DNA from: Chloroflexota bacterium
GTDB taxonomy: Bacteria; Chloroflexota; Anaerolineae; Anaerolineales; Anaerolineaceae
NCBI GenBank assembly: GCA_011053085.1
Contig: DSBE01000356.1
Span: 1 to 14,952, forward strand
Direction: 5' to 3'
Length of the DNA: 14,952 nucleotides
Within the stretch, counting starts at the first letter, position 1. The number at the start of each line of letters is the position of its first letter. Below the pieces are notes generated by a model. It did not search any database and was not told the DNA's origin. It saw only the letters and a list, made by a program, of their open reading frames with translations. The position numbers were made by a program, and so were the translations under genes. Below, one piece after another: positions 419 through 14,952 of this stretch.

Positions 419-440
419 GTTGAGGATCTGAGCGTCAATC

Positions 441-2255
441 TTAAGGGGCAAAAATAACCCCGTGTTCCATCAACAGTCCCTTAATCGATGTCACTGAAGT
501 GTTGAGGTCATCGTCGTCATCGATCTGAAAATCGGGATTGATGTCCGTTGTAACCCGACTGCCATTCCACACCACTTCTACTCGTTCATTACCAATGCTG
601 GAACGTATCAGATTGAGGTCTGCCTGGTCAATTTCGCGTGCTGTAACAATCAAAATAAGCCCGGCATCGATGAAGATGTGAGCGATTTCTGCGAGACGGC
701 GCATGTGTTCTTGCGGGTCATCGGTGGCGGCAAATAATTTTAAGTCTGCATCCACACCATAAATGACAGAGCCGATACCCAAAAAGTACACGAATTTTCC
801 TGATTGAAAGAGGGATTTCTCCAGTTGATGGGCTACTTCTTTGCGCCGGCTTTCTTCTGTGCCGGTGACGATGATCAAGCATGAGCGCTGGTTGTAACGC
901 TCTGAACGCTGGTACATTGAAACGGCGCTGTCGATCCATTTGCGTTCACGTAAAAAGATGGCTTCGCGAATTTGACTGCCTTCATCAGGCAAGGCTTCCA
1001 AAACGATGCCGCCACCGCGGATTTCATAGTCATCGACGATGACAAAACGGCTGGTGTCAGCCAGGCTTTCTGAGAGATCGCAAGCGATGGGGGCGTGAAG
1101 CAGAAGGACGCATTGAGCGACATCATGATGTTCGATGCGGTCTTTTTCCGTGCTTGAATAATCGGAGGCGTCAATGATCTTATCGATATGTTCGATGGTG
1201 CAGCGGACCTTGGCGGTGCCCAGTTTCAAATGATATTGCTTTTGGGGAACCATGGGTTTTTGCCCCAGCCAGACCAAACTGACACGCAGTCGTTTTGAAA
1301 CATAGGGGGGTTGTTCATCCACTTTGCTGGCGATTTCGCCGCGCTGGATGTAAATTTGTTTGGTCAGGGTGAAGCCGGTGGCGGAACCACTCATAACTTC
1401 ACCAGGCTGTTCAGCTGCGAAGGCTTCAAAAGAGTTAATAGTGGATACTTTTCCTGATGGATAGAAGATAACCCGGTCGCCAATCGCCAGTTTTCCTGAC
1501 GAGACGCTACCGGCGACGATACGGCGTGAATCACCATATTGTGTGAACTTGTAAATATCCTGCACAGGCATGCGGAAGGGTAGATCGACTGGCGGAGAGG
1601 CTTTCTGGAAAGAATCCAACGCGTCCAATAAGGTCTCGGACTGATACCAGGCAGTATCCTCGTTGTGAACCGCAATGTTTGCGCCCTGTATGCCGCTGAC
1701 CGGGATGTAGAACATAGGTTTGATGCCCAACTCATCCAAAAATTGCTGATAATCTGCAACTATGTTTTTAAAAACCCCTTCATCAAAATCGACCAGGTCC
1801 ATTTTATTGATCAATACTACAATCTGGCGGATCCCCAGCATCCATAACAAATAGCCGTGGCGGCGCGAGTTTTCCTGCACGCCTTCTTTGGCATCGATGA
1901 CCAGCACGGCCGCTTCAGCACGTGAGGCGCCAGTTACCATGTTTTTGATGAATTCGATATGGCCAGGGGCATCGATGATGATGTAATGGCGTTTGTTTGA
2001 ATGGAAAAAGACGCGGGCAGCATCGATGGTGATCGATTGTGCCTGTTCTTCTTTCAGGGCATCAATCAGATAAGCGTATTCGAAAGGCTGTGACTCGCGT
2101 TCACATCGTGCCTGGATTTGCTCCAGTTTTCCATCAGGCAGAGAGCCGGTTTCGGCCAGCAACCTGCCGACCACGGTGCTTTTCCCATGATCGACATGGC
2201 CGACAAAAACGATGTTCATTTGTTCGTTATTGGTTGGTTCGGTGCTTGCTGCCAT
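441..2255 (-). CDS. cysN: Sulfate adenylyltransferase subunit 1 (CysN) with a degenerate APS-kinase-like C-terminal domain
   Basis: This is the GTPase subunit of ATP sulfurylase, which couples GTP hydrolysis to formation of adenylyl sulfate (APS) by CysD. The GTPase motifs are intact: P-loop GHVDHGKST at residues 19-27, DAPGH at 95-99 and NKMD at 150-153. EF-Tu-like beta-barrel domains follow to about residue 440. Residues 458-604 (bases 441-884) align by eye along their length with the CysC protein of this same operon. The key sites are lost, however: the P-loop position reads GTEESRRKE instead of GLSGSGKST, and the DGD position reads GIG. The flanking scaffold ([24 protein letters not shown]) is kept, so this looks like a pseudo-kinase domain in a CysNC-type protein. 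Near the C-terminus there is a DDDDD run (579-583). The ATG at 2255 lies 2 bp beyond the cysD stop, with AAGGAT upstream. It is the last gene of the operon. Confidence 0.93.
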
Positions 2256-2257
2256 GT

Positions 2258-3154
2258 TTACATGTATCCTTCACGTCGTAATGATTCCAGGCCGCCGCCA
2301 TCTTCTTTGTCCTGCGCACGACCTTCACGTTCTGCAATTTTGGAGAAGCGGCCTGTCTTTAGTTCTTCGATGATCTCGCGCACATTGCGTGCTTCTGAGT
2401 TAACCGGAAAAGTGCAGGGATAGCAACCCAGAGAACGGTAACGGGTGCCTTCACCCTGGTTGTAATATAGAGAAACGGTGGGGATTTTTTCTCTTTCGAT
2501 GTACTCCCAGATATTGATCTCAGTCCAATCTAACAAGGGGTGGATGCGGACATTGGTGCCGGGGGCAAAATCGGTTTTGTATTGATTCCAAAATTCAGGG
2601 GGTTGTTCCGCAATGTGCCACTCATTTTGGCGGTCGCGCGGTGAGAAATAGCGTTCTTTAGAGCGAGAGCCTTCTTCATCAGCGCGGGCGCCAACGATCA
2701 CCCCGGTAAATGGTTCGGGGTTCTCCTCACGCTGGTACTCGCCGAGGGCATGGTTGAAGCGATACCGAACGCCATCACCGGTGAGTACACCGCGCAAGGC
2801 TTCGGTTTTCAACAACTGGCAGCAACTGATTCGGTCAATGGCACCATCGGGGAAGGTCTGCTTGTTCTCCAACGCCTGTTCATTGCTGCCAACGATCATG
2901 TTGATTTTCCACTCGCGAACGATGCGGTCACGATATTCGATCATTTCGGGAATTTTGAAATGCGTGTCGATATGGATCAGTGGGAAGGGAACATGGCCAT
3001 AGAACGCTTTGCGTGCCAGCCACAAAAGTACTGTCGAATCTTTGCCCATTGACCATAGCATGCCAAGATTTTTGAAATTGGCATAGGCTTCACGAAATAT
3101 GTAAACGGAGATATTTTCTAATTCCTGTAAATGATCCATGTGGTTTCCAGTCAT
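2258..3154 (-). CDS. cysD: Sulfate adenylyltransferase subunit 2 (CysD)
   Basis: This is the catalytic subunit of ATP sulfurylase (ATP + sulfate to APS + PPi), a PP-loop ATPase that pairs with CysN encoded just downstream. The PP-loop reads SMGKDST (residues 35-41) where the common form is SGGKDS. Other CysD signatures are [16 protein letters not shown] (61-76), [14 protein letters not shown] (155-168), [11 protein letters not shown] (238-248) and the terminal RREGYM. The 298-residue length is normal for the family. The ATG at 3154 overlaps the cysC stop as ATGA, but an ATG at 3139 (residue 6) with GGAAA just upstream is an equally good start. APS made here is the substrate for the neighbouring CysC. 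No sulfite-forming APS or PAPS reductase is in the window, so use for sulfation is as likely as use for assimilation. Confidence 0.95.
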
Positions 3155-3774
3155 TGTTTAGGATTGATACTGTGATGAATGATGTTCTTTTCGCACAGGT
3201 AGTCTATCACATCCTGAGTGCATTGTTCGGGGGTCTTTTCTGCGGAAAACAGGTGGATTTCAGGATGTTGCGGGGGTTCATAGGCAGCATCAATGCCGGT
3301 GAAGTTGGTGATGATTCCGGCACGCGCTTTTTGGTACAGTCCTTTGGGGTCGCGCTGCTCGCAAACCCGCAGGGGGCAATCAACGAATATTTCAATAAAT
3401 TCACCGGCGGGCAGCAGTGCCCTTATCTGGTCTCTGTCAGCGTGTAAAGGGCTGATAAAGGCGGTTAACACCAATAAACCAGCCTGGTTGAACAATTTGC
3501 ACACTTCGCCAATGCGGCGGATGTTTTCATGGCGGTCTGCTTCGCTGAAAGTCAGGTCTTTGTTCAACCCGGTGCGAACTGTGTCGCCATCCAGCAAGTA
3601 GGTATGGGCAAGATAGATTTGATTTAGCTGGTATTCAACCAGATTGGCAATGGTTGATTTCCCGCTGCCTGAAAGGCCTGTGAACCATAATACGGCGGGT
3701 TGGTGGCCTTTAATGCGCAACCGATCTGAGCGTGATAACATTTGCTGATGGGGGTGTAAATGTAATTTGTCCAT
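3151..3774 (-). CDS. cysC: Adenylyl-sulfate kinase (CysC)
   Basis: This enzyme phosphorylates APS with ATP to give PAPS, the sulfuryl donor for sulfotransferases. All kinase motifs are present in the 207-residue protein: Walker [10 protein letters not shown] (residues 33-41), DGD (62-64), [11 protein letters not shown] (81-91), [12 protein letters not shown] (107-118), the lid [10 protein letters not shown] (144-153) and [11 protein letters not shown] (158-168). The reading frame stays open further upstream, but that stretch runs inside the preceding oxidoreductase gene in another frame and does not resemble CysC. The ATG at 3774 gives the usual N-terminal lead before VLWFTG, 19 bp after the oxidoreductase stop. 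No clear Shine-Dalgarno site is visible. The 3' end overlaps cysD by 4 bp. The presence of this intact kinase makes the degenerate copy fused to CysN dispensable for catalysis. Confidence 0.95.
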
Positions 3775-3793
3775 AATGACTGGCAGAATTATA

Positions 3794-4846
3794 TCAGACC
3801 GGGCTGTTGGCATAAATTTGGTGGACCAACGCCAATGCGCGCAGGGCGTCCGCAGAATTGCCGGATGCCAATGGTTGGTCATTGATGATGGCGGCGACAA
3901 AATCTTCAAATTCAAGGCGCCACGAATCATCGATGCCAAAGTAAATGGTTTCCTCGCGGGGTTTTCCCAACGAGCGGGTCTTGTTTTCAAACTCCCGCCG
4001 CGCATAGGTCAAAGTTTCGTCTCCATAGCTTCTGGTAGATGACAGGATTCCGTTCAGGTTTATATACCCATTCTGAAGGCAGATTTCAAGCGAAAAAGTG
4101 TGTTTCCATTGGGTGGCTGATGAATGCAGCAATGCAACCTGGTTGTTGTCGTTGCGTAAGATAGCGAAGGCATTGTCCTCTACCGGCACCTGCCAGTAAG
4201 AGTTGGTGGTGAGGCTTTGAACTTGCTGGAAATCACCGCAAAAATACAAGAACAAATCCACCATGTGGATACCCTGGTCGATCAAAATGCCGCCACCTGA
4301 GAGTTCAAGGTCATTGCGCCAGGAGTCCGGGTAATAGAGTCCGCCAGCTTTTCCATAGACCCCACGCATCCAAAGGATATTGCCGAAATGGCCAGCATCG
4401 ATCATGTGTTTGGCTTCCATGATGGAATAATGTTTACGGTGGTTGAATCCATACATTAAGACCAATTCGGGATGGGCTTGTTCTACCTCGATCACCGATA
4501 GCATTTCTTCAATCGTGCGTGCAGGTGGTTTCTCGCAGAAGACGTGCTTGCCCGCCTTCAGCGCTGCCTTGACCACCTGCGGCGCAATGTGGTTGTAGGT
4601 ACAGATGATGACCGCATCAATATCTGCCTCAACAATCAACTTGCGGTAATCATCATAGATAATCTGGTCAGGATAGGTTTTTTCCAAACCGGGAACAACG
4701 TCACACAGGGCAGCAACAGAGAGGTTGGGATTCTTAGTTGCCTCCTCGTAACGAATCCCACCCATCTTTCCCATACCAACAATACCCACTTTAATGGGCA
4801 GCTTGAAAGGTTTCTTTTTGGGGTGTAGTGAGAGCTTTGATAGCAT
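3794..4846 (-). CDS. Gfo/Idh/MocA-family NAD(P)-dependent oxidoreductase
   Basis: A 350-residue sugar dehydrogenase-like protein. The N-terminal Rossmann fold carries VGIVGMGKMG (residues 20-29). It is followed by the family's EKP motif (105-107) at the cofactor and active site, then GFNHRKHY (133-140) and GGGILIDQGIHMVDL (184-198), whose His194 is in the usual catalytic-base position. These enzymes oxidise or reduce hydroxyls of free or nucleotide-linked sugars or cyclitols; the substrate here is unknown. An upstream in-frame TTG (4879) would overlap the SIS gene by 20 bp. I prefer the ATG at 4846, which leaves a 13-bp gap, although neither start has a strong ribosome site. Its place between an SIS isomerase and cysC suggests it works on the sugar phosphate or sugar nucleotide handled by this operon. 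Confidence 0.88.
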   Translation of the reverse strand: MLSKLSLHPKKKPFKLPIKVGIVGMGKMGGIRYEEATKNPNLSVAALCDVVPGLEKTYPDQIIYDDYRKLIVEADIDAVIICTYNHIAPQVVKAALKAGKHVFCEKPPARTIEEMLSVIEVEQAHPELVLMYGFNHRKHYSIMEAKHMIDAGHFGNILWMRGVYGKAGGLYYPDSWRNDLELSGGGILIDQGIHMVDLFLYFCGDFQQVQSLTTNSYWQVPVEDNAFAILRNDNNQVALLHSSATQWKHTFSLEICLQNGYINLNGILSSTRSYGDETLTYARREFENKTRSLGKPREETIYFGIDDSWRLEFEDFVAAIINDQPLASGNSADALRALALVHQIYANSPV

Positions 4847-4859
4847 GATTGATTTCAGG

Positions 4860-5480
4860 TCAATGGGAAAGAGAACCAACCCTTGACAGGCGCAGATAGG
4901 TATAGATCAGGTGGTCGAGGATTTGGAAGATATCTTCTACCGGCCCATATTCACCCAGTGGGGTGGGGATATGGAAATGGATGTCAGCCAGACTGCCAAT
5001 TTTCCCGCCACTGAATCCTGTGCAGGCAATCACCGTCGCGCCGTTGTCTTTGGCGTATTGACAGGCATGGACGACATTGGGGCTGTTACCACTCACCGAC
5101 AGGCCTACCACGATGTCACCAGGCTGCATAAAAATTTCTAATTGGCGAATGAAAATGTTCTCGAAGCCTTCATCATTACTGACACAGGTGAGTAAAGCCA
5201 AATTATCCACCAGTGAAACAGCTCGTAAAGGTTTGTGTTGGTTGGTGCGGGTGTTTACCGCCATGTCGGAAGCAAAGTGTGTGGCGGTTACCGCACTGCC
5301 GCCATTGCCCAAAAAGTAAATGGTTTTTTCGTTCTCTGCAGCGGTTGAGAACGCGTCTATGATTTGCTCGATGATGGAAACATCAATTGCCTGGAGGATA
5401 TCTGCCAGATAGGCAAGGTATGCGCTGGCAAATTGCGCGCTTGAATGGGTGGCATTAAACAAAGTAACCAGATCAGCCAT
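4860..5480 (-). CDS. SIS-domain sugar isomerase, GmhA (phosphoheptose isomerase)-like
   Basis: A 206-residue single-domain SIS protein resembling D-sedoheptulose-7-phosphate isomerase. Visible sugar-phosphate-binding loops are FLGNGGSA (residues 56-63) and SVSGNSPN (128-135). The C-terminal helix reads YGPVEDIFQILDHLI (178-192). By alignment to E. coli GmhA, the metal-ligand positions (His, Glu, Gln, His) correspond to His68, Asp72, Glu182 and His190. Two of the four are therefore conservative changes, and the substrate may differ from sedoheptulose 7-phosphate. No other heptose genes (hldE, gmhB, hldD) are in the window. The ATG at 5480 has AGGA upstream and lies 4 bp past the methyltransferase stop, which supports co-translation. 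I am confident of the SIS fold and less so of the exact reaction. Confidence 0.85.
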   Translation of the reverse strand: MADLVTLFNATHSSAQFASAYLAYLADILQAIDVSIIEQIIDAFSTAAENEKTIYFLGNGGSAVTATHFASDMAVNTRTNQHKPLRAVSLVDNLALLTCVSNDEGFENIFIRQLEIFMQPGDIVVGLSVSGNSPNVVHACQYAKDNGATVIACTGFSGGKIGSLADIHFHIPTPLGEYGPVEDIFQILDHLIYTYLRLSRVGSLSH

Positions 5481-5484
5481 AAGT

Positions 5485-6486
5485 TCAGTCCTTTTTTTGT
5501 GCTACCAGACGCAGATGCGAACTTAACAAATTCGCCTGGAGGAATTGTTGCAGATTTTGTTTTGCCAGGTCATCACGGTTATCAAAGAAGTACCTGACAC
5601 TTTTGGGCAATACCAATTCAGGAGTCTGTTGATACGTGGCAGCGACGGTTTCAACATCCAGTTGACCGGGCGTTGATATTTCGAAGATAGAGAGATTGTG
5701 TTCACGTAATAACAACTTGATTCCTTCTACTGATAGCAGATTCAGGTGTTCGATGGGTACAATGGTCGGGCAATACTCTCCCAGGATCTGGATATCAAAA
5801 CCACTGCCCACACGGGTGGTCATCAGGAGGAAACCACCAGACTGCAATTTCTTCCTGATGGTTTCAAAAAATTTTCGGGGTGAGTATTGATGTTCGAGGA
5901 TATCAAAGGCGGTGAGGATACTGACAGATTCATCATTAACATCATCAAGAAAGTCATAAGCCCGGCTTTGTTCGTCTGACTCCGCTGCAAACCTGGGCGC
6001 CACTGACGAAACCTCCCATTCTGCCTGTTGGCTAAGTAGTGTCAGGAAGTTGGCGGAACGGGTTTCCAGATCGAGGATTGATATTGTTTTTCTCTTCGGG
6101 ATTCGAATGGCGATCGAATCGATCCAGCTGGCACGGTAGGCAGACAGTCGTTCGTAATTCGTCTGCATGGTTTGCATATACGAAGAAGATTGCCGGTAAA
6201 GTGCTGCAGGTGATTCATTCAGGTACCAGGAAAGCTGGCTCAGGTTGGGCCGGTTGCTGACAAACAAAGATGAGCATTGCTGGCATTCAGCATAATGAAA
6301 CCGCCATTTGTCAAATGCCGGGGTGATTTCTTGGCTGCCACAGGCGGGGCATTCTGTTAATTCGACGAATTGAGACCTGTCAAGGACAAAAGCACTTTCA
6401 CGGGCAAGTTCACGAAAAGGCTGGTAGGTGCCAGGTGGGTGAATTTCTAAATCACTGATGGAGTCATTGTATGTGACCTGACGCAT
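5485..6486 (-). CDS. Zinc-ribbon, class I SAM methyltransferase-like protein with degenerate motif I
   Basis: A 333-residue protein. A CPACG...CQQC zinc-ribbon-like pair (Cys46/49 and Cys68/71) precedes a Methyltransf_23-like Rossmann domain. The post-motifs look right: FDILEH (194-199), RKKLQSGGFLLMTT (211-224) and IEHLNLLSVEGIKLLL (245-260). This N-terminal zinc ribbon plus methyltransferase arrangement is common among sugar and antibiotic C-methyltransferases. The SAM-binding glycine motif, however, which should read roughly hhDhGxGxG, is SILDLETRSANFL (136-148) with no glycine. Activity is therefore doubtful, or SAM is bound differently. Translation from TTG 6495 is possible, but ATG 6486 with AAAGGA 12 bp upstream is preferred. 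A 74-bp gap separates it from the preceding fusion gene. Its role in the operon is inferred only from position. Confidence 0.75.
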   Translation of the reverse strand: MRQVTYNDSISDLEIHPPGTYQPFRELARESAFVLDRSQFVELTECPACGSQEITPAFDKWRFHYAECQQCSSLFVSNRPNLSQLSWYLNESPAALYRQSSSYMQTMQTNYERLSAYRASWIDSIAIRIPKRKTISILDLETRSANFLTLLSQQAEWEVSSVAPRFAAESDEQSRAYDFLDDVNDESVSILTAFDILEHQYSPRKFFETIRKKLQSGGFLLMTTRVGSGFDIQILGEYCPTIVPIEHLNLLSVEGIKLLLREHNLSIFEISTPGQLDVETVAATYQQTPELVLPKSVRYFFDNRDDLAKQNLQQFLQANLLSSHLRLVAQKKD

Positions 6487-6560
6487 GGGTTGCAAAAATC
6501 CTTTGTCTGCGAGTATGGCAGTGACAGATGGTTCGTTGCATTGGATTATAACACGGTGGA

Positions 6561-7682
6561 TTAATTGTGAAAATTGGCTTTGGCGCGCACGACCGTATTA
6601 TCAGGGACATCGGCAGTTAAGGTTACGCCCGAAGCGATGACTGAGTTGCTTCCGATGGTGAGTCTGGGTTCGATGTAAATACCGGTACCGAAGCGAACAC
6701 TGCTGCCGATGGTAACCCCGCCTGACATGGCGACACCGGGCCCGAAGGTGCAATGCGAGCCCATTTTATTGTGGTGTTCAATATTCACATACGCAGATAG
6801 AAAATTATTATCTCCTATTTGCGACTCAGGCCCCAGCCGGCAGAATGCCATAATCATGTTACCAGTTCCCATGCCTGCATTGACGCCAATGATGGCGGAG
6901 GGATCGATGATGTTCACAAAAGGTATGCCGAGGGTGGTTAACCTCTCAAACAATTCGCGCCGTGTTGGCAAAATGCCGACAGCAAGAGCAGCCTTGTCAA
7001 AGAAATTCTGGTCAAAAAGAGATTTGGCTCTATCCAGATTGCCCAACACTGGCACTCCCATGATGGTGGTATTTTGCAGGGCAGGATTGTCGTCAAGAAT
7101 GGCAACGGCGGTTTGTTGCGGGATCCTGGCAAGAATGTCCAACACGAGACAGGCTACATTACCACCGCCCAGAATCAAAATGCGTTCAGTGGCATTGGAA
7201 AACCCCTGGTTGGCTTGTTTCTCCGCCGTTGTCGATTTCTGTTGCAGATAAGCTTGTACGACTTCTTCTGTTATCCGATTGTCGGCAGATACCCGGCGTT
7301 CCATCTCCTGTGGGGGGATGTTGTGTCTCTGGGCGAGAATTTCAGCTTTCCTGGTCCAACGATTATCAGCGGTTTGTTGCAGAGATTGGGGTTTCGCTTC
7401 TTCGGTCTTTGTCTCCACTGATAGAAGGTTTTGAATATCCTCATTCGGTTGGTCTGTCAAGGCAGCGATCACCTCACCAACTGTGACCTGGCTGCCAGCT
7501 TCGACTAACGGGACGAAAAAGCCCGGGTCTGTGGCATGAAAATCGTAGGTGGATTTTGTGGTTTCAAAGGTCGCTAATAATTCACCCTTGTTGACGAATT
7601 CTTTGGGTTGCTTGTGCCATTCAACCAGGTTCATTTGTTCTTCATTAACATTCACCATGGGAGCATACAGTAAAACACTCAT
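6561..7682 (-). CDS. Lipoyl domain - E3/E1-binding-like domain - NeuD/PglD-type sugar acyltransferase fusion
   Basis: A 373-residue three-part protein. Residues 1-77 form a biotinyl/lipoyl domain whose hairpin reads FETTKST, with Lys43 in the lipoate position. Residues about 107-147 resemble the peripheral subunit-binding domain of E2 proteins (RKAEILAQRHNIPP, then NRITEEVVQAYL), with Q- and K-rich linkers either side. Residues 166-373 are a complete NeuD/PglD/VioB-type acyltransferase: a nucleotide-sugar-binding Rossmann part starting RILILGGGNVACLVLDIL, then left-handed beta-helix hexapeptides (FGPGVAMSGGVTIGSSVRFG). His303 in NIEHH aligns with the catalytic His125 of Campylobacter PglD. 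The normal E2 acyltransferase core (HXXXDG motif) is absent. The start overlaps the E1-beta stop as ATGA. The architecture implies a shuttle of acyl groups from E1 through lipoate to a sugar amine or hydroxyl. An acetyl-CoA donor with a purely structural lipoyl arm is the alternative. Confidence 0.88.
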   Translation of the reverse strand: MSVLLYAPMVNVNEEQMNLVEWHKQPKEFVNKGELLATFETTKSTYDFHATDPGFFVPLVEAGSQVTVGEVIAALTDQPNEDIQNLLSVETKTEEAKPQSLQQTADNRWTRKAEILAQRHNIPPQEMERRVSADNRITEEVVQAYLQQKSTTAEKQANQGFSNATERILILGGGNVACLVLDILARIPQQTAVAILDDNPALQNTTIMGVPVLGNLDRAKSLFDQNFFDKAALAVGILPTRRELFERLTTLGIPFVNIIDPSAIIGVNAGMGTGNMIMAFCRLGPESQIGDNNFLSAYVNIEHHNKMGSHCTFGPGVAMSGGVTIGSSVRFGTGIYIEPRLTIGSNSVIASGVTLTADVPDNTVVRAKANFHN

Positions 7683-8671
7683 GACAACACCTCGTAGATT
7701 TTCTGTTCAATTTTTTGCAGATTCGGCAAATGCAACTGCTCCAAAGCCTGGGTGGCAGGGATGATTGTATTTTCAGCATGGATGACGGCGATCGGCGCGG
7801 TCAAACGGTTTAGCATTGCATGTTGCAGGTCGTATGCAATTTGCGCGCCCCAACCGAAGGGGCCGGCACCTTCTTCCACGATGACTACCCGCCCAGTATG
7901 GCTGGCTGAGACAGCCAGCGTTGGGTGTGCCTTTTGGTTAAGGGATGACGGAACCAGGACGTCCAACCAGATTTCTTCCTCTGCCATTTTTTGTAACAAC
8001 GCTGGCAGCCAGAGCGCACCGCCGTAGGTTATCAGGGTAAGGTCAGCGGTTTTTTCTGTGTTATTGGTTAATCTAACCAAAGGGAATGATTCGTCACTCA
8101 GGTTTACCGCGAAGGGTGAATTGGCTGGCGTGATGAGTTCCTGGCTGTAGAGAAGTTTGTGTTCCAAAAATAACACAGGGCCCGGTTGTTGTATCGCAGA
8201 TGCCAACATCAACCCCGGATCATGGTAAATAGATGGCGCAAGAATGGTGATGTGGGGGATGCCAAGAAATAATTTTTCCAAGCATTGGCTGTGTGTGGGA
8301 CCGTAACCTCTGCCGCCGCCAACCGGCATACGGATGACCAGGTGGTATTCAAGGGCTGATTGATACATAGCGGCGAATTTGGCGGCATAGTTAATGATCT
8401 GATCAGCGCCAAGGGTGATAAAGTCGCCAAACATGATCTCCACAATGGGTTTCAAGCCACGTAAAGCCATGCCGTTTGCGACGCCAATAAAGCCAGCTTC
8501 GCTGATCGGCGTGGTGATGACGCGGTCCGGGAATTTGGTGGAGAGTCCTTTGGTGACTTTAAAAGCGCCGCCATAGGGATCAAGAATATCTTCACCCATC
8601 ACAAGCACGGTCGAGTCGACTGACAAGAGTTGTTGCAGGTGCAGTTGCAGGCTTCCTAAGTAGGTGGTCAT
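7679..8671 (-). CDS. 2-oxoacid dehydrogenase E1 component, beta subunit-like (transketolase fold)
   Basis: A 330-residue homologue of PdhB/AcoB/BkdB, the partner of the E1-alpha gene with which it overlaps by 4 bp (ATGA). Family signatures are VMGEDILDPYGGAF (residues 24-37), TPISEAGFIGVANGMAL (54-70) with Glu58 in the position that activates thiamine diphosphate, GGGRGYGPTHSQ (118-129) and VIVEEGAGPFGWGAQI (263-278). In alpha2beta2 E1 enzymes this subunit completes the thiamine diphosphate site, and its C-terminal domain docks on the E2 subunit-binding domain. That fits the lipoyl fusion protein encoded immediately downstream. The substrate 2-oxoacid cannot be deduced. The length is close to the roughly 325-residue family norm and nothing looks broken. 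Confidence 0.92.
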   Translation of the reverse strand: MTTYLGSLQLHLQQLLSVDSTVLVMGEDILDPYGGAFKVTKGLSTKFPDRVITTPISEAGFIGVANGMALRGLKPIVEIMFGDFITLGADQIINYAAKFAAMYQSALEYHLVIRMPVGGGRGYGPTHSQCLEKLFLGIPHITILAPSIYHDPGLMLASAIQQPGPVLFLEHKLLYSQELITPANSPFAVNLSDESFPLVRLTNNTEKTADLTLITYGGALWLPALLQKMAEEEIWLDVLVPSSLNQKAHPTLAVSASHTGRVVIVEEGAGPFGWGAQIAYDLQHAMLNRLTAPIAVIHAENTIIPATQALEQLHLPNLQKIEQKIYEVLS

Positions 8672-9603
8672 GGCTGCCTTCCCGCAAAAAACATCTCGGG
8701 TGCCAGAACCAATTGCTGTTTCACTGTTTCCACCGCTTCAATAATGCGCATATCCACTTCATTCTCGATAGATGCCACCCGGCGCTCATTGATTTGCGCC
8801 AGTGCCCAACGCATATGTGTTAATGGGTCTGACCTTTTGGCGGTTTCGATCTCTGCGGCCGGCCGGACATCATCACCCTTGCTGTGGGGAGCGAAGCGGT
8901 AGGTGTGCATGGTAATGAACAGCGGTTTTTGCTGGGTGCGGACTTTGTGGACACACTCCTGTGCCAATCGGTTCACACTGATGACGTTGTCGGCTTTGAT
9001 CTCACGCGTTTCTATGCCGAAAGCTTTGGGGCGGTTGCTTAAGTCGCCGGTATGCGCCAGACTGGTGGGGGTGGTCTGCGCGTATTGATTGTGTTCTAAG
9101 ACAAAGAGAACCGGTAATTTCCATAGTGAAGCCATGTTGAGGCTCTCATAAACAATGCCTTCACCCATGGCACCGTCACCAAGGAAAACAACGGTTATTG
9201 CACCACTATTTTTCTTCTTCTCTGCCATTGCGGAACCTACTGCACAGGCAACGGTACCGCCCAGAATGCCGTTGGTATAAAAGTTGTTGTAATGTAAGTG
9301 TTGTGACCCGCCAATGCCACGGCACACGCCAGTTTCTTTGCCCATGACTTCGGCAATGAGGCCTTCTATATTGTCACAATAGGCCAGAAAATGGCCATGT
9401 CCGCGATGATTAGACCAGATCACGTCTTTGCTTTTGTCAATGGCGTTCACCACACCGACCGCGATGGCTTCCTGCCCGATGCAGGTATGAACGGTGCCGA
9501 ATAATAGCCCCTGTGAGAAAAGATCCAACAAGGTCTCTTCTGTGCGGCGTATCAGATACATTTGCTGGTATAAATGCCATTCAAGAGCAGGAACAGATTG
9601 CAT
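8668..9603 (-). CDS. 2-oxoacid dehydrogenase E1 component, alpha subunit-like (thiamine diphosphate enzyme)
   Basis: First gene of the nine-gene operon, 311 residues, related to PdhA/AcoA. The thiamine diphosphate motif runs from GDGAMGEG (142-149) to Asn172 in LEHNQYA; ENN is the more usual form of the end. Other conserved sites are SNHRGHGH (64-71), GGSQHLH (98-104) and the active-site loop HTYRFAPHSKGDD (233-245). In pyruvate dehydrogenases that loop is typically YRxHGHSxSD, so this enzyme is closer to acetoin- or branched-chain-type loops and may use a different 2-oxoacid. It would decarboxylate a 2-oxoacid and reductively acylate the lipoyl arm of the downstream fusion protein. No dihydrolipoamide dehydrogenase (E3) is encoded nearby, so one from elsewhere in the genome would be needed for turnover. 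The ATG at 9603 is preceded by AAGGAAA and a TGATATAAT box. Confidence 0.92.
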   Translation of the reverse strand: MQSVPALEWHLYQQMYLIRRTEETLLDLFSQGLLFGTVHTCIGQEAIAVGVVNAIDKSKDVIWSNHRGHGHFLAYCDNIEGLIAEVMGKETGVCRGIGGSQHLHYNNFYTNGILGGTVACAVGSAMAEKKKNSGAITVVFLGDGAMGEGIVYESLNMASLWKLPVLFVLEHNQYAQTTPTSLAHTGDLSNRPKAFGIETREIKADNVISVNRLAQECVHKVRTQQKPLFITMHTYRFAPHSKGDDVRPAAEIETAKRSDPLTHMRWALAQINERRVASIENEVDMRIIEAVETVKQQLVLAPEMFFAGRQP

Positions 9604-9606
9604 GGG

Positions 9607-9613
9607 TTTCCTT
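9607..9613 (-). promoter_or_regulatory. Ribosome binding site of the E1-alpha gene
   Basis: AAGGAAA on the minus strand ends 3 bases before the ATG at 9603, with its AGGA core about 5-6 bases away. It supports that start for the first gene of the operon. Confidence 0.6.
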
Positions 9614-9633
9614 CAAGTTGGTAAACACTTGCG

Positions 9634-9662
9634 ATTATATCACGGGGGTTTTTCTCGTTGAA
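9634..9662 (-). promoter_or_regulatory. Probable promoter of the nine-gene E1/acyltransferase/cysCDN operon
   Basis: On the minus strand a perfect TATAAT (9639-9634) is extended by TG to TGATATAAT. A weak -35, TTCAAC (9662-9657), lies 17 bases upstream, as expected for an extended -10 promoter that tolerates a poor -35. Transcription would start near 9627, giving a leader of about 24 bases before the ATG at 9603. This is read from sequence only. Confidence 0.6.
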
Positions 9663-9705
9663 AGAGATGCGGGCTGTACGGTTGTTGTCAGTAGAGCAAT
9701 TGTCG

Positions 9706-9733
9706 TTGAGCAATACAATTTATCAAGTACAAT
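9706..9733 (+). promoter_or_regulatory. Possible promoter of the UDP-sugar dehydrogenase gene
   Basis: TTGAGC (9706-9711) and TACAAT (9728-9733) are spaced by 16 bases, and the gene starts about 50 bases further on. A second TACAAT at 9714-9719 lacks a well-spaced -35. The site is divergent from the operon promoter with about 45 bp between the two elements, so shared regulation is possible. The match is modest. Confidence 0.4.
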
Positions 9734-9774
9734 GGTAAGGCAAATTGGCAAAAGCAATAATTTTCTGGCTTACA

Positions 9775-9780
9775 AGAGGA
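9775..9780 (+). promoter_or_regulatory. Ribosome binding site that fixes the start of the UDP-sugar dehydrogenase
   Basis: AGAGGA lies 9 bases before the ATG at 9790. That ATG begins directly before the Rossmann strand, while the reading frame is open further upstream without family-like sequence. This decides for 9790 over any upstream start. Confidence 0.65.
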
Positions 9781-9789
9781 AAATGGTCT

Positions 9790-11085
9790 ATGAAATTCTC
9801 AAAAATTTGCGTTCTGGGGTTAGGGTATATCGGCTTGCCGACCGCTTCCACCTTTGCTATGCACGGTTTGCTGGTGGTGGGGGTCGATGTAAAGCGTAAC
9901 ATCATCGAGACCTTGCAACGTGGAGAGCTGCATATTCACGAACCTGGTTTGCACAATATTGTCAAGCAGGCTTTAGCAAGTGGTAATTTGCGGGTGAGTT
10001 TGAAGCCAGAAGAAGCGGATGCCTTCATCATTGCGGTTCCTACACCTTTTCATGAAGACAAAACGGCTGATCTGTCGTTTGTCCGCTCTGCCACGCAAGC
10101 GATCGTTCCTTTTTTACGCAAAGGCAACCTGGTCGTGTTGGAATCGACGTCACCGCCGCAGACAACGGAGCAAGTGGTTGTACCGCTTTTGGAAAAGACC
10201 GGGTTGCATGCGGGAGAAGATTTTTTGGTTTGTTATTCACCTGAGCGAGTGCTTCCCGGGAAAATTCTGCACGAGCTCGTAGAAAATGCGAGAGTTATCG
10301 GTGGAATTGACGCTGCCTCTGCCAGAGCAGGCGCAGAACTCTATAAGACTTTTGTGCGAGGGGAGATCATTCAAACCACTGCCACCACGGCTGAAATGGT
10401 GAAGCTGATGGAAAACACCTACCGTGACATAAATATCGCAATCGCCAACGAATTTTCAAGGCTGGCAGAACAGTTTGACGTGAATATCTGGGAAGCCATC
10501 CAGATCGCCAATTTGCATCCGCGTGTGAAAATCTTAAATCCAGGGGTGGGGGTTGGGGGACATTGCATCAGTGTTGATCCGTGGTTTTTGGTTGAAAAAG
10601 CCCCCGAACTGACGCCCTTGATCAAAACTGCACGAGAAGTCAACGACAGCCAACCTGCCTTCGTCGCCCGATTGGTTCAGGAGGCCCTGGGGGGAACGGT
10701 TGAGAAAAAGAAAATTGGGGTATTGGGCCTGTCCTACAAAGCCAATGTGGATGATATCCGCGAGAGTCCGGCAATCGATGTGGTTGAATTATTGACTGAC
10801 CTTGGCGCTGAGGTCAAGGCATATGAGCCGAATAAACCTGAGGCGGTCATTAACAAAGGCAATGTTAACCACTCTCTTGCCGAGGCGGTCAATGATGCCG
10901 AAATGATTGTTTTTCTGGTCGGGCACAGTCCTTTTAAAGCGATTGAGCCCGCCTATATAGCAACGATATCATCGGCTCGTATAGTCATTGATGCCGTCCA
11001 GGTGTTGGATGCAGATAAATGGCGCAATCACGGGTTTACGGTCATTAAATTGGGGGATGGTAAATTTCCAAAATCCGTTAGCTGA
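9790..11085 (+). CDS. UDP-N-acetyl-mannosamine/UDP-sugar 6-dehydrogenase, WecC type
   Basis: A 431-residue member of the UDP-glucose/UDP-ManNAc dehydrogenase family, which oxidises C6 of a UDP-sugar twice with NAD to give the uronic acid. Motifs in order are VLGLGYIGLPTA (residues 8-19), CYSPERVLPGKI (148-159), VKLMENTYRDINIA (204-217) with Lys205, and GVGVGGHCISVDPW (252-265) with catalytic Cys259. The C-terminal UDP-binding domain begins IGVLGLSYKANVDDIRESPA (309-328). The HCISVDPWF and VLPGKILHE forms resemble WecC (UDP-ManNAc) and WbpA (UDP-GlcNAc) more than Ugd. Which of these sugars is used is open. It is divergent from the large operon and convergent with a WbpB-like gene, overlapping that gene's end by 8 bp. 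It probably supplies an aminouronic acid to a surface glycan. Confidence 0.92.
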   Translation: MKFSKICVLGLGYIGLPTASTFAMHGLLVVGVDVKRNIIETLQRGELHIHEPGLHNIVKQALASGNLRVSLKPEEADAFIIAVPTPFHEDKTADLSFVRSATQAIVPFLRKGNLVVLESTSPPQTTEQVVVPLLEKTGLHAGEDFLVCYSPERVLPGKILHELVENARVIGGIDAASARAGAELYKTFVRGEIIQTTATTAEMVKLMENTYRDINIAIANEFSRLAEQFDVNIWEAIQIANLHPRVKILNPGVGVGGHCISVDPWFLVEKAPELTPLIKTAREVNDSQPAFVARLVQEALGGTVEKKKIGVLGLSYKANVDDIRESPAIDVVELLTDLGAEVKAYEPNKPEAVINKGNVNHSLAEAVNDAEMIVFLVGHSPFKAIEPAYIATISSARIVIDAVQVLDADKWRNHGFTVIKLGDGKFPKSVS

Positions 11086-12121
11086 TTGACCCCCAGGCGA
11101 ATCCATTTCGATGGGCAGACGCATACGCCTGATGAATGACAGTGACGGTATCTACCGCATGTTGCGGCAAAAAGGCGGGGGAGCGGTCTTCAATCAGGCT
11201 GCTGATGAAGTCTTTGATCTGCAGGTCGTGTAAATCGCCATAATATCCGATACCTACCTTTTGGTAGGTGCGAGTGACTGTTTGCATGATCTCGCTAAAA
11301 TTTACACCCTGTACATCTATGACAGGTGGTTGGTGGGGGCTGTGAAGGTCAAATACAATTCTCCCGTCGGTGCCCACCATTTCAATCTCAGCGTTCCATT
11401 CCTCTTTTGCATAGCCACTGGTGATATTTAAGGAGCCTAAGGCGCCATTATTGAACACGCATTGCAGGGAAATGGTGTCTTCAGTTTCGATCAGGTCAAC
11501 GTGCGCACGTCTTGCCGCATAAGCGTTCAATTTAGCCGGAATGCCTGCCATCGACAGGATGATATCAAGCATATGGTAACCCTGGTTAATCAGGGCAGAG
11601 CCGCCGTCAATTGCGCTGCGTCCATGCCAGTAGGATTCTGAATAATATTCTGTAGATCTCCCACAAAGCAAACGCCCATTTATCTGCAATAGTGTGCCTA
11701 ATTTGCCTTTTTGAACCAAAGCACGGATTTGATTGATCATCGGGTCAAAGCGGTGTTGTGAGATGCAAATGATCTTCAGCCGGTTAGCGGTTGCCAGTGC
11801 TACCAGTTCGCGTGCATGCTCAGGTTCAATGGTAAAAGGTTTTTCTACGATTACGTGTTTTCCAGCAAGCAGTGCCTGTTTTGCCAGGAGATAATGAGAG
11901 GCATGGTCTGTCAAAATATTGACAAAATCTACGGATGGATCTTTGAACACATCGTCTGCACTCGGTGTTGTTCGCACGTTCGACAGTGAGTTGGCAAATG
12001 GCGCTGTATTGTGCACCTGCAAATCGCAGAGCCAACGAATGGCAACATCAGGGTGCTGATTGAGTGTGACAAAGTGATTGGGGCAGATTCGCCCGCAGCC
12101 AATGATTCCGCAGTGCAGCAT
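11078..12121 (-). CDS. Gfo/Idh/MocA oxidoreductase, WbpB/WlbA-like (UDP-sugar-uronate 3-dehydrogenase candidate)
   Basis: A 347-residue oxidoreductase with the Rossmann motif GIIGCGRICPNH (residues 5-16), EKP at 93-95 and DGGSALINQGYHMLD (172-186), where His183 is the probable catalytic base. The pattern YY-S-x-x-W-HG (159-167), followed by the DGG-NQ-H block and then an ALGSLNIT-like strand, is shared with WbpB/WlbA. Those enzymes oxidise the C3 hydroxyl of UDP-GlcNAcA on the way to 2,3-diamino sugars. The convergent WecC/WbpA-type dehydrogenase next door would make just such a substrate, which supports the call. No WbpE-like aminotransferase is present in the window. The ATG at 12121 is chosen because of a strong GGAGGT five bases upstream. 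The frame is open to 12151 without family-like sequence. Confidence 0.85.
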   Translation of the reverse strand: MLHCGIIGCGRICPNHFVTLNQHPDVAIRWLCDLQVHNTAPFANSLSNVRTTPSADDVFKDPSVDFVNILTDHASHYLLAKQALLAGKHVIVEKPFTIEPEHARELVALATANRLKIICISQHRFDPMINQIRALVQKGKLGTLLQINGRLLCGRSTEYYSESYWHGRSAIDGGSALINQGYHMLDIILSMAGIPAKLNAYAARRAHVDLIETEDTISLQCVFNNGALGSLNITSGYAKEEWNAEIEMVGTDGRIVFDLHSPHQPPVIDVQGVNFSEIMQTVTRTYQKVGIGYYGDLHDLQIKDFISSLIEDRSPAFLPQHAVDTVTVIHQAYASAHRNGFAWGSIS

Positions 12122-12126
12122 AGTAG

Positions 12127-12132
12127 ACCTCC
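12127..12132 (-). promoter_or_regulatory. Ribosome binding site deciding the start of the WbpB-like gene
   Basis: A full GGAGGT on the minus strand lies 5 bases before the ATG at 12121. It excludes the in-frame start at 12151, which is upstream of this site. Confidence 0.8.
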
Positions 12133-12152
12133 ATAGATGGTAAACCACCATA

Positions 12153-12158
12153 ATTATA
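12153..12158 (-). promoter_or_regulatory. Probable -10 element of the WbpB-like gene
   Basis: A perfect minus-strand TATAAT about 31 bases before the ATG at 12121, in an A/T-rich stretch. No good -35 is visible at 16-18 bases. The 159-bp gap to the upstream debranching-enzyme gene (12122-12280) otherwise holds no gene that I can see. Confidence 0.5.
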
Positions 12159-12280
12159 GAGGTTATTTATCTTTTTTCCGAAAGTGAAAAGGCGATTGGT
12201 TTTCGTAATTATTTGCCTTCATGAGTTAAGCCTATTCCATGCAAATCCTGACATTCTCGATTAACAAATTAATCATTTAT

Positions 12281-14257
12281 TCATTGAGCGTATGTGATTT
12301 GTCCATAATATCCGATTGCTTCACAGGCACGAATAACTTCGGCTACGCTCCATGCCTGCGCGATGCATCCGCGTGGGTGATAGGGCGAATCGCCATCAAA
12401 TATCTCACCGATACTACCCACACCGAAATCTGTCAACTGGTCGAGTAGTGGTGACAGAAAAGTCGCGGCCAGGTTGGCATCGTTATAAACCTTAAGATGG
12501 GCGATCACAAAGGGGCCAATCAGCCATCCCCATACGGTTCCCTGGTGATAGGATTGATCTCTGTGTGCCATATCACCGCCATAATCGCCGCGATATTCCT
12601 GTTGTGATGGTGCCAGGCTCCTCAGTCCATGAGCGGTTAACAACTGAGCAGCAGCAACATCAACAACGATTTTCTGTTGGAATCGAGGGATTGGACTGTG
12701 TGTCAATGAAACCGCAAATAGTTGGTTTGGCCGCAGCGAGTGATCTGGGCCATCAGGGGCGTCAATGACGTCATACAGATAATTCCCTTCGCTGTACCAG
12801 AATCGGTCAAAGCTCATTTTTACCTTTGATGCCATTTTCTCATAACTGGCCGGGTCTTTTTTCAAAACCTTTGTAAAACTTGCCATTATTCTTAACGCGT
12901 TATACCAGAGGGCATTGATCTCCACAGCCTTTCCGGTCCGGGGTGTGATCACCCGGTCGCCAACTTTTGCATCCATCCAGGTCAGCTGCACCCCCTCTTC
13001 GCCAGAATATAGCAAACCGTCTTTTGGATCAACATGAATCTGGTAGCGGGTTCCCCGGCGATGATGAACGATTATTTTCTCTAAAGCAGGATAAATTTCG
13101 GCGAGGAGATCTATATCTTTGGTTCTGACATAATAAGCATGAAGGGCTTCAAAATACCACAAGGTGGCATCGACAGTATTGTATTCTGGCGTTTCTCCTG
13201 AATCGGGGAACCGGTTGGGCAGCATTCCCTCAGACACGTAATCAGCATAGGTTCTAAGAATGGTTCGGGCGATGTCTGCTCTGCCCGTTGCCAGCGTGAG
13301 CCCTGGCAAACTGATCATCGTGTCCCTGCCCCAATCACTGAACCAGTGATAGCCTGCGATGATGGATTTCCCGTCAGGGTTATTCTCGGTGGCACGATGG
13401 ATAACGAATTGATCAGCTGCCAGTTTGAGTTGGGCAGGTATGTCCGGTGCCAGAGCAACCAGTTTCTGTTCATAGGCTCTTCTGTCTGCCAAAGTTTTCG
13501 CCCCGTCCAGGTTGGGATTCTCTTCACTGGACAATATGAATGTGATGGGATGATTCAGTTGAAGGGTTACCTCAAATTCAGCAGCCAACAGGTGGTCATC
13601 AAGCGCCCCCAACCCGCGGTATGCTTCTGTAGAGAGGGCAAAGCGAAAATACCACGCATGTTTAGGTTCGCAAGCTGCCTCAGGACACAGCACCTGAAAC
13701 GAAGCGGCACCAGAAAAGGGCAAAACACGTATACCGTGATTGACAGGTTGAACATTCATAACCCAGCCATGACCGGCAGTGGTATTGTGATGATCACGAT
13801 AGTTTACCAATACCTTTGTTCGCAGATTCATGGGGGCAGAAGCTCTCTTCAGGGAATATTGCACATAGGTTGTGTTTTCTCCCTGCTGCATCCAGATTCT
13901 CTTTTCCAGCAAGGCATCGCCAATTGCAAAGGTCCACACCGGCAATGTGCCTTCCAGGTGGAAGGATTCGATGTAAACAAAACCTCTGGGATCAATACTG
14001 CCATCACCCCATTGGTCGGCAAACAGGGGAACTGATTGATCGCCATAAGAAGCGATTTCATCAAGTTTGGCTACCAGCAACGTTCTCCGAGTAGGTGGCC
14101 GCAAAGCAGCTGTCAGCAAGCCATGGTACCGCCGTGTCAAGACATTGGCGATCGTGCCAGAGGCGTACCCGCCGATACCGTTAGTGACCAGCCATTCTTT
14201 TGATTGGCTGGTTTCCGGGTGAGTAACAATGCTCCTTGAAAAACGGATCGGTTCCAT
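12281..14257 (-). CDS. Amylo-alpha-1,6-glucosidase / bacterial-archaeal glycogen debranching enzyme (GH133)
   Basis: A 658-residue protein with the two-part organisation of the 'archaeal-type' glycogen debranching enzymes. An N-terminal beta-rich domain carries NGIGGYASGTIAN (26-38) and TRRYHGLL (41-48). From about residue 280 there is an (alpha/alpha)6 catalytic domain carrying YHWFSDWGRDTMI (303-315), YNTVDATLWYFEA (359-371), LTWMDAK (425-431), SYHQGTVWGW (569-578) and CIAQAWSVAE (631-640). The family hydrolyses alpha-1,6 branch points of glycogen-like glucans, and the protein has no signal peptide, so it should act in the cytoplasm. The acids in the SDWGRD and WMDA motifs are catalytic candidates. 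The ATG at 14257 follows AGGAAGGAA by 9 bases. It is probably a carbon-storage gene and not part of the sugar-modification operon; the 43-bp spacing from the broken SDR gene is likely incidental. Confidence 0.93.
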   Translation of the reverse strand: MEPIRFSRSIVTHPETSQSKEWLVTNGIGGYASGTIANVLTRRYHGLLTAALRPPTRRTLLVAKLDEIASYGDQSVPLFADQWGDGSIDPRGFVYIESFHLEGTLPVWTFAIGDALLEKRIWMQQGENTTYVQYSLKRASAPMNLRTKVLVNYRDHHNTTAGHGWVMNVQPVNHGIRVLPFSGAASFQVLCPEAACEPKHAWYFRFALSTEAYRGLGALDDHLLAAEFEVTLQLNHPITFILSSEENPNLDGAKTLADRRAYEQKLVALAPDIPAQLKLAADQFVIHRATENNPDGKSIIAGYHWFSDWGRDTMISLPGLTLATGRADIARTILRTYADYVSEGMLPNRFPDSGETPEYNTVDATLWYFEALHAYYVRTKDIDLLAEIYPALEKIIVHHRRGTRYQIHVDPKDGLLYSGEEGVQLTWMDAKVGDRVITPRTGKAVEINALWYNALRIMASFTKVLKKDPASYEKMASKVKMSFDRFWYSEGNYLYDVIDAPDGPDHSLRPNQLFAVSLTHSPIPRFQQKIVVDVAAAQLLTAHGLRSLAPSQQEYRGDYGGDMAHRDQSYHQGTVWGWLIGPFVIAHLKVYNDANLAATFLSPLLDQLTDFGVGSIGEIFDGDSPYHPRGCIAQAWSVAEVIRACEAIGYYGQITYAQ

Positions 14258-14266
14258 GGGTGCAGG

Positions 14267-14275
14267 TTCCTTCCT
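14267..14275 (-). promoter_or_regulatory. Ribosome binding site of the GH133 gene
   Basis: AGGAAGGAA on the minus strand, 9 bases before the ATG at 14257, which supports that start. Confidence 0.65.
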
Positions 14276-14300
14276 GTCTTGTCAGAATCTCAGAAAACAA

Positions 14301-14921: not shown

Positions 14922-14952
14922 TCATCTTCCGCATTCCCTTGATAGGAAAAAA

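Follow-up and report, generated by a model that had tools for sequence, protein, structure and literature searches.

The stretch of DNA analysed here, called the window throughout, covers positions 1 to 14,952 (14,952 nucleotides) of contig DSBE01000356.1 from the Chloroflexota assembly GCA_011053085.1, and carries on its minus strand a set of three genes, encoding an E1-alpha, an E1-beta and a lipoyl–sugar acyltransferase fusion, that is judged from its sequence to be a 2-oxoacid dehydrogenase complex with the E2 core exchanged for a sugar N-acyltransferase. The set probably encodes a dedicated complex of 2-oxoacid dehydrogenase type that N-acylates nucleotide-activated amino sugars, with acyl-lipoyl as the direct donor, and quite plausibly represents a widespread enzyme class in which nucleotide sugars receive their acyl group directly from protein-bound acyl-lipoate and not from acyl-coenzyme A (acyl-CoA) or acyl-acyl carrier protein (acyl-ACP). 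In the proposed mechanism, E1-alpha and E1-beta with thiamine diphosphate (ThDP) would decarboxylate a 2-oxoacid and reductively acylate the lipoyl group on the fusion's Lys43, the swinging lipoyl domain would bring the acyl-dihydrolipoyl thioester to the left-handed beta-helix domain of the same protein, and the amine of a nucleoside diphosphate (NDP)-amino sugar would attack the thioester with His303 as base, the dihydrolipoyl arm then being re-oxidised by the common E3 of the cell. The fusion would replace both an acyltransferase of the WbpD/FdtC/QdtC/PglD type and the E2 core. An initial annotation of the window had proposed direct transfer from lipoate to an amino or hydroxyl group of a sugar nucleotide, and as a whole that interpretation is partly supported by the results below. 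The genes and the parts of their products are as follows.

8668..9603, minus strand: E1-alpha-like ThDP subunit, 311 amino acids (aa) (Pfam E1_dh, 190 bits; PDB matches)
9172-9180, minus strand: GDG motif of E1-alpha, residues 142-144, conserved in fusion-linked E1-alpha
7679..8671, minus strand: E1-beta-like subunit, 330 aa (Pfam Transket_pyr and Transketolase_C)
8498-8500 and 8291-8293, minus strand: codons of E1-beta Glu58 and His127, respectively
6561..7682, minus strand: lipoyl / subunit-binding-like / PglD_N / left-handed beta-helix fusion, 373 aa (Pfam, AlphaFold2, Foldseek)
7443..7682, minus strand: lipoyl domain, fusion residues 1-80 (Biotin_lipoyl at 7-75; Lys43 codon at 7554-7556)
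7239..7367, minus strand: peripheral-subunit-binding-like segment, fusion residues 106-148 (family profile, predicted helices)
6939..7184, minus strand: PglD_N nucleotide-sugar-binding domain, fusion residues 167-248, with D197 D198 (Pfam PglD_N)
6585..6908, minus strand: left-handed beta-helix acyltransferase domain, fusion residues 259-366 (Hexapep; His303 codon at 6774-6776)

The genes are read in the order E1-alpha, E1-beta, fusion, and both junctions (E1-alpha/E1-beta and E1-beta/fusion) consist of ATGA with a four-base overlap; the open reading frame (ORF) coordinates and the coupling of the three genes given in the initial annotation were both borne out. The domain composition read at that time, a lipoyl domain joined to a NeuD/PglD beta-helix without a CoA-acyltransferase core, was likewise recovered: Pfam reported Biotin_lipoyl at residues 7-75 of the fusion, PglD_N at 167-248 and Hexapep, and the 2-oxoacid_dh core (PF00198) was not reported for the fusion. 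Biotin_lipoyl scored 26-50 bits in nine relatives. The Pfam search of the fusion gave no PP-binding domain (the T or ACP carrier domain), a result that covers the fusion itself and not separate carrier genes in the vicinity. The AlphaFold2 model of the monomer had a mean predicted local distance difference test score of 79, with about 90-98 in the lipoyl part and weak values at the beta-helix end, and was matched by Foldseek to the pyruvate dehydrogenase (PDH) lipoyl domains 3crk and 1y8n (root-mean-square deviation of 1.2-1.5 Å) and to the PerB entries 4eaa and 4ea7. The initial annotation had also expected a Pfam E3_binding domain, which hmmscan did not report in 10 fusion proteins even at E<=10. 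When residues 106-148 were compared with E2 subunit-binding domains by profile-profile alignment in hhalign, a probability of 97.7% was obtained, in a single comparison with the region picked beforehand, and a subunit-binding profile built from 20 E2 proteins (Escherichia coli AceF and 19 from fusion-carrying genomes) gave 11 of 38 fusions a higher score than any of 760 shuffled controls. Helices were predicted at 111-119, 124-130 and 139-155 in the model, and by family profile and predicted helices the segment appears to resemble a peripheral subunit-binding domain.

Against the NeuD_NnaD family (TIGR03570) the window fusion scored 152.2 bits, below the cut-off of 160.8 bits, and the more distant fusions of genomes G092, G188 and G220 exceeded that cut-off. 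There were 346 homologues of the fusion at E<=1e-3; among the best 120 of them, the commonest source name was 'sugar O-acyltransferase (sialic acid O-acetyltransferase NeuD family)', one was named 'biotin/lipoyl-containing protein', one was GlmU-like and others were hypothetical. A biotinyl domain was considered and rejected, as Met-Lys-Met, which we take to be the biotin-type motif, stood at 42-44 in no fusion row, and E1 neighbours would be senseless for biotin.

The retention of Lys43, His303, E1-beta Glu58 and the ThDP motif of E1-alpha, first noticed in the window proteins, was confirmed across the alignments of relatives. The fusions were compared in 81 rows (38 from alignment A1, the 42 loci described below including the window, and locus L090), of which 75 are distinct, the window being present twice and some proteins coming from two sources; many of the 75 are close kin, and the counts are not independent. 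Lys43 was present in 38/38 sequences of an alignment of fusions and in 81/81 rows of the comparison. Lys43 and His303 were kept in all 75 distinct fusions, an equivalent histidine being found in 26/26 NeuD-only relatives, and His303 aligns with the catalytic His141 of PerB, which is changed in 4eaa (H141N) and 4eab (H141A). The E1-alpha residues G142-D143-G144, R67, H69 and H240 were kept in 36 of 36 fusion-linked sequences, and Glu58 and His127 of E1-beta in all 39 rows with a letter there, one further row being gapped; the conserved histidines are those of PDH-type enzymes. The best PDB match of E1-alpha was among PDH E1-alpha chains (E 4e-38), and that of E1-beta was chain 1ik6 (E 2.4e-44). 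In the PglD_N domain, D197 was found in 75/75 distinct fusions and D198 in 66/75. These residues may be equivalent to an aspartate pair that binds uridine in Pcryo_0637 (PMC8040287).

The association of the fusion with E1 was evaluated in 42 loci with both halves of the fusion, gathered from a scan of genome contigs (38 loci, 34 with both halves), a scan of the phylum (400 genomes; the nine with a match include that of the window and one that lacks the lipoyl half) and the window itself; L017 (contig edge, lipoyl part missing) and L038, L041 and L042 (acyltransferase half only) were left out. E1 was found on the same strand within 5 kb of the fusion in 40 of the 42 loci, the window included. 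For comparison, 201 genomes of the phylum gave 34 NeuD-family matches, 30 of which were viewed with flanks of about 1.5 kb on each side, and E1-alpha or E1-beta was in view in none of 26 lipoyl-less NeuD loci versus four of four with a lipoyl domain. L090, in which the fusion is followed by E1-alpha and E1-beta, belongs to this control and not to the 42, and the lipoyl loci L074, L079 and L081 of the control come from the same genomes as L054, L060 and L058. The initial annotation had named a neighbourhood survey as a test that could refute it, and the survey came out clearly in its favour. The E1-linked loci span ten phyla by record titles (Chloroflexota, Armatimonadota, Bacillota, Ignavibacteriota, Chlorobiota, Verrucomicrobiota, Pseudomonadota, Acidobacteriota, Bacteroidota and Actinomycetota), although metagenome bins can be mislabelled; L008 and L022 are titled as different phyla yet stand very close on the tree, and one of these bins may be mislabelled. 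The fusion is rare within the phylum sample (8/400 genomes, the window's included), and none was confirmed in a scan of viral contigs. That the genes adjoin by chance, or that a decayed PDH operon acquired a NeuD domain by accident, has a practically negligible probability: only the low Biotin_lipoyl score of the window protein speaks for it, whereas the architecture with E1 recurs under ten phylum titles with invariant catalytic residues and an E1-beta branch of its own, and the neighbourhood survey had already refuted it.

Variation among the loci was also recorded. In Bacteroides (L025), both E1 subunits are found in one protein, an arrangement that E1 frame lengths also suggest for other loci of Bacteroidota. 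Six loci of the window's phylum (L054 and L056-L060) hold a more distant class of lipoyl-NeuD fusion with adjoining E1-beta and E1-alpha, and lack the E338-P339 signature of the main class. In the Acidobacteriota loci L019 and L037, a second NeuD-like gene and weakly E1-like ORFs (a pair in L037) lie further on; L019 also has a radical SAM gene before E1 and, on the opposite strand after the fusion, a cytidine triphosphate (CTP)-transferase gene.

The E1 of these loci appears to be a dedicated one. In the tree, 39 fusion-linked E1-beta sequences were split from 17 other E1-beta of fusion-bearing genomes at 100/100, and none of 500 label shuffles matched this split. The comparison sequences were taken from 20 hand-chosen regions with Transket_pyr matches, of which 17 were usable, and were located with a profile built from fusion-linked sequences. 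A displaced housekeeping PDH E1 was rejected as an explanation, the other E1-beta of the same genomes lying beyond the 100/100 branch, and the fusion-linked E1 is unlikely to be the housekeeping enzyme; there is good support for the complex and for an E1 dedicated to it. The further supply was searched for in 21 fusion-carrying genomes, that of L020 not included. An E2 core was found elsewhere in the genome in all 21, an E3 over the TIGR01350 cut-off also in all 21, the window's own included, and an LplA/LipB-type enzyme in 20, the exception being the window's own assembly. Eight fusion-bearing relatives of at least 94% completeness had genes of both the LplA/LipB/biotin-ligase family and LipA. 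Since LplA/LipB and E3 were found in the genomes, lipoylation of Lys43 and re-oxidation by E3 would both be at hand.

The neighbouring genes point to an amino sugar as the acceptor. A DegT/DnrJ aminotransferase was found within 5 kb of the fusion in 21/42 loci, and DegT, a Gfo/Idh oxidoreductase or a uridine diphosphate (UDP)-sugar dehydrogenase in 28/42; no beta-helix acyltransferase other than the fusion was found in 17 of the 21 DegT loci, some of the contigs being short. In Rheinheimera (L021), the order is nucleotidyltransferase, dehydratase, 3,5-epimerase, C-methyltransferase, DegT, E1-alpha, E1-beta and fusion, and the order in L020 and L024 matches it. In Bacteroides (L025), FdtA-like ketoisomerases are followed by E1, fusion, DegT, flippase and glycosyltransferases, and the fusion would occupy the place of FdtC/QdtC; in Chryseobacterium (L032, L035), the order is UDP-sugar dehydrogenase, DegT, E1, fusion and Gfo/Idh, and the fusion would occupy the place of WbpD. 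We take WbpD, FdtC and QdtC as the pathway names for those acyltransferase positions. Because amino-sugar pathway genes adjoin the fusion, an N-acyl group on an NDP-amino sugar is the best reading of the product. The amine half of the amino-or-hydroxyl acceptor first proposed is favoured by the aminotransferase, Gfo/Idh and nucleotide-sugar neighbours, and the hydroxyl half (O-acylation) was rejected as the principal reading on account of the DegT aminotransferases and amino-sugar genes nearby. In Actinoplanes (L029-L031, L033, L034 and L040), a compact set of divergent DegT, E1-alpha, E1-beta and fusion was observed; a few neighbours were scanned in L029 and L034, and the one pointer to a role in glycans among them is a membrane acyltransferase in L029. 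The set possibly serves a small glycan or natural-product modification.

Two other roles for the E1 were weighed. In the first, to which a low probability is given, E1 would not decarboxylate a 2-oxoacid but take a two-carbon (glycolyl) unit from a ketose phosphate, and the sugar would be N-glycolylated, as in the NapB/NapD-type pairs, for which a ketose phosphate is described as the source of the hydroxyethyl unit (PMC7570522). GmhA-like SIS genes occur alongside the fusion in the window and in L005, L008 and L022, and in L008 genes for a GHMP kinase and a nucleotidyl transferase follow as a heptose-type set, but the SIS genes may just serve heptose synthesis. Moreover, E1-alpha and E1-beta are nearest to PDH-type E1, not to transketolase, and have kept the PDH-type histidines. 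In the second, which is very improbable, E1 would add a pyruvate-derived two-carbon branch to a ketosugar, a role given to the PDH-like E1 pairs Pau11/Pau12 and AviB1/AviB2 of sugar clusters (PMC4425429), and the lipoyl-NeuD protein would be a separate, CoA-dependent acetyltransferase. A lipoyl domain has no place in such a carboligation, which leaves the invariant Lys43 and the near-constant link of E1 and fusion unexplained; an E1 pair without a lipoyl partner would mark a carboligase, and the lipoyl fusion lies beside E1 in 40 of 42 loci.

The remaining question is whether the sugar acyltransferase domain of the fusion takes its acyl group from lipoate or from CoA. In Pcryo_0637, a conserved proline of the C-terminal region flips from trans to cis on CoA binding, and the tail folds back onto the subunit it belongs to; acetyl-CoA sits wedged between subunits, with His142 as the probable base (PMC8040287). 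A C-terminal GxPA motif is seen in VioB, Pcryo_0637 and PglD, and in our reading it holds this CoA-responsive proline. GxPA was found in two of the 75 distinct fusions, that of the window not among them, versus 15 of the 26 lipoyl-less NeuD proteins. The two bearers are the fusions of L055 (2913-4121), with no E1 in view, and L090 (1471-2607), with E1-alpha and E1-beta downstream instead of upstream, and they are possibly intermediate or CoA-using forms. The missing motif weakly suggests a changed donor site and is the sole hint in the sequences on the CoA question.

A relay through CoA is considered fairly unlikely. In it, the beta-helix domain would still use acyl-CoA, formed from an acyl group that E1 and the lipoyl domain had produced locally and handed to CoA; in variants of it, the housekeeping E2 perhaps does the CoA step, or the lipoyl arm is a device for supply or control. 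The closest solved relatives are the N-acetyltransferases PerB and Pcryo_0637, with CoA or acetyl-CoA as ligand; all 21 genomes searched have an E2 core, the fusions of L028 and L036 are followed by an acetyl-CoA-synthetase-like gene, and two fusions have kept GxPA, all of which would suit such a relay. However, without a CoA-acyltransferase core the E1 and lipoyl domain of the operon cannot yield acyl-CoA alone, a lipoyl arm fused covalently to a sugar acyltransferase would lack a clear purpose, and 73 of the 75 distinct fusions are without GxPA. Because the operon alone cannot make acyl-CoA, the covalent joining of lipoyl arm and sugar acyltransferase is best understood with acyl-lipoyl as the donor, and CoA-free direct transfer appears to be the most likely mechanism. 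Beta-helix acyltransferases that use carrier-protein thioesters are known (LpxA and LpxD), and both families were matched in a library search of the window proteins.

Several observations weigh against direct transfer from lipoate to an amino sugar. GxPA is also absent from 11 of the 26 NeuD-only proteins and hence not strictly defining, and the C-terminal ends of the distant fusions of L054 and L059 are much like those of the lipoyl-less NeuD of L087 and L091; for both reasons the loss of GxPA is no proof that CoA use was lost. An acetyl-CoA-synthetase-like gene after the fusion, in two of the 41 other loci, would suit a CoA donor and counts mildly against the reading (both Saprospiraceae: L028, 4410-6320; L036, 11750-13657). 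The window fusion scored 22.6 bits with Biotin_lipoyl, barely above the cut-off of 22.1 bits, and on its own scored -1.0 bits with the subunit-binding profile, below the best shuffled control. In L010 and L055, the fusion has no E1 in view, which likewise counts mildly, and a second beta-helix acyltransferase-like gene occurs in four of the 21 DegT loci (L018, L019, L023 and L037). The window's assembly, at 69.8% completeness, yielded no lipoylation gene, apart from one weak LipA-like match below the cut-off. Finally, the window holds no DegT gene, the contig ending with the window at 14952.

Direct acylation from lipoate by the fusion would combine features of several known systems. With PDH and other 2-oxoacid dehydrogenase complexes (E1-alpha2beta2) it shares the ThDP-dependent E1, a lipoyl domain with an invariant lysine, a subunit-binding-like segment and an E3 in the genome, and differs in that the fusion has a sugar acyltransferase instead of a CoA-acyltransferase core and that no E3-like ORF lies within the window. 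With the NeuD/PglD/VioB/PerB N-acyltransferases (TIGR03570; PF17836 and Hexapep) it shares PglD_N, the aspartate pair, the left-handed beta-helix and the catalytic histidine, but has in addition the N-terminal lipoyl and subunit-binding-like domains and a linked E1, besides falling under the TIGR03570 cut-off in the window and lacking GxPA in nearly all distinct fusions. In pathway position the fusion resembles WbpD, FdtC, QdtC and PglD, adjoining aminotransferase, dehydrogenase or ketoisomerase genes, though these enzymes are CoA-dependent and without a lipoyl domain.

The nearest precedent in chemistry is the pepteridine system (the plu2792-plu2799 island), in which a PDH-like E1 and an E2-NRPS (nonribosomal peptide synthetase) fusion were proposed to acylate a pterin amine from 2-oxoacids, without acyl-CoA and with an E3 borrowed from the host (PMC5384830). 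The two systems have in common a PDH-like E1 with an E2-like fusion, and amine acylation from a 2-oxoacid without acyl-CoA. The pepteridine acyl group travels via a T carrier and an NRPS C domain to pterin, whereas neither domain was reported in the fusion and the acceptor is read here as an NDP-sugar. The NapB/NapD-type pairs of naphthyridinomycin and dnacin deliver a hydroxyethyl unit to a carrier protein (PMC7570522); they too are ThDP enzyme pairs passing a two-carbon unit to an assembly line, but with an acyl carrier protein as recipient and a ketose phosphate as source. Similarly, AviB1/AviB2 (avilamycin) and Pau11/Pau12 (paulomycin), to which two-carbon branches on sugars were assigned (PMC4425429), are PDH-like E1 pairs serving sugar biosynthesis, and differ in the proposed formation of a C-C bond on a ketosugar, with no lipoyl partner named in the accessible text. 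A lipoyl-fused sugar acyltransferase is not described for the pepteridine, NapB/NapD or AviB/Pau systems in the parts available of these papers (PMC5384830, PMC7570522, PMC4425429), and among the listed titles and abstract beginnings of open-licence papers no description of E1 with a lipoyl-NeuD fusion was found, which is not proof of absence.

If the proposed direct transfer is true, acyl groups would leave lipoate by a third kind of route, in addition to those to CoA and to carrier proteins, and many phyla would have made a glycan-tailoring enzyme out of a textbook machine of central metabolism. The acyl groups of surface glycans need not then exist as CoA esters, which would give bacteria a way to place unusual N-acyl groups on their polysaccharides. 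Examples of unusual N-acyl groups known from structures are 3-N-malyl on a 2,3-diamino uronic acid and 3-hydroxy-3-methylbutyryl on Qui4N (PMC3210612). Additionally, the annotation of homologues named NeuD-family sugar O-acyltransferases would be mended.

The other genes of the window near the set are listed below.

5485..6495, minus strand: methyltransferase-like gene, downstream (Methyltransf_23; order identical in L005)
4860..5480, minus strand: SIS/GmhA-like sugar isomerase, downstream (SIS_2, gmhA-like; order identical in L005)
3794..4879, minus strand: Gfo/Idh/MocA oxidoreductase, downstream (order identical in L005)
9745..11085, plus strand: divergent nucleotide-sugar 6-dehydrogenase of the UDP-N-acetylmannosamine (UDP-ManNAc) dehydrogenase type (TIGR03026, 441.9 bits, cut-off 189.8)
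11078..12151, minus strand: Gfo/Idh/MocA oxidoreductase with a possible WbpB-type role, also a neighbour in L005

With PRK11064, the dehydrogenase at 9745..11085 scored 453.3 bits, the cut-off being 459. After the cluster, a sulfate-activation set with CysC-, CysD- and CysN-like genes was observed at 441-4005 on the minus strand, the CysN-like protein having a partial match to adenosine 5'-phosphosulfate (APS) kinase at 457-555. In L005, the fusion is followed by methyltransferase, SIS, Gfo/Idh, CysC, CysD and CysN genes, which is the order of the window, and the shared sulfate-activation genes hint at a sulfated product. The longest CysC-like ORF of the window (3151-4005, minus strand) overlaps the Gfo/Idh gene by about 200 bases; its true start probably lies further in, the APS-kinase domain beginning at residue 102.

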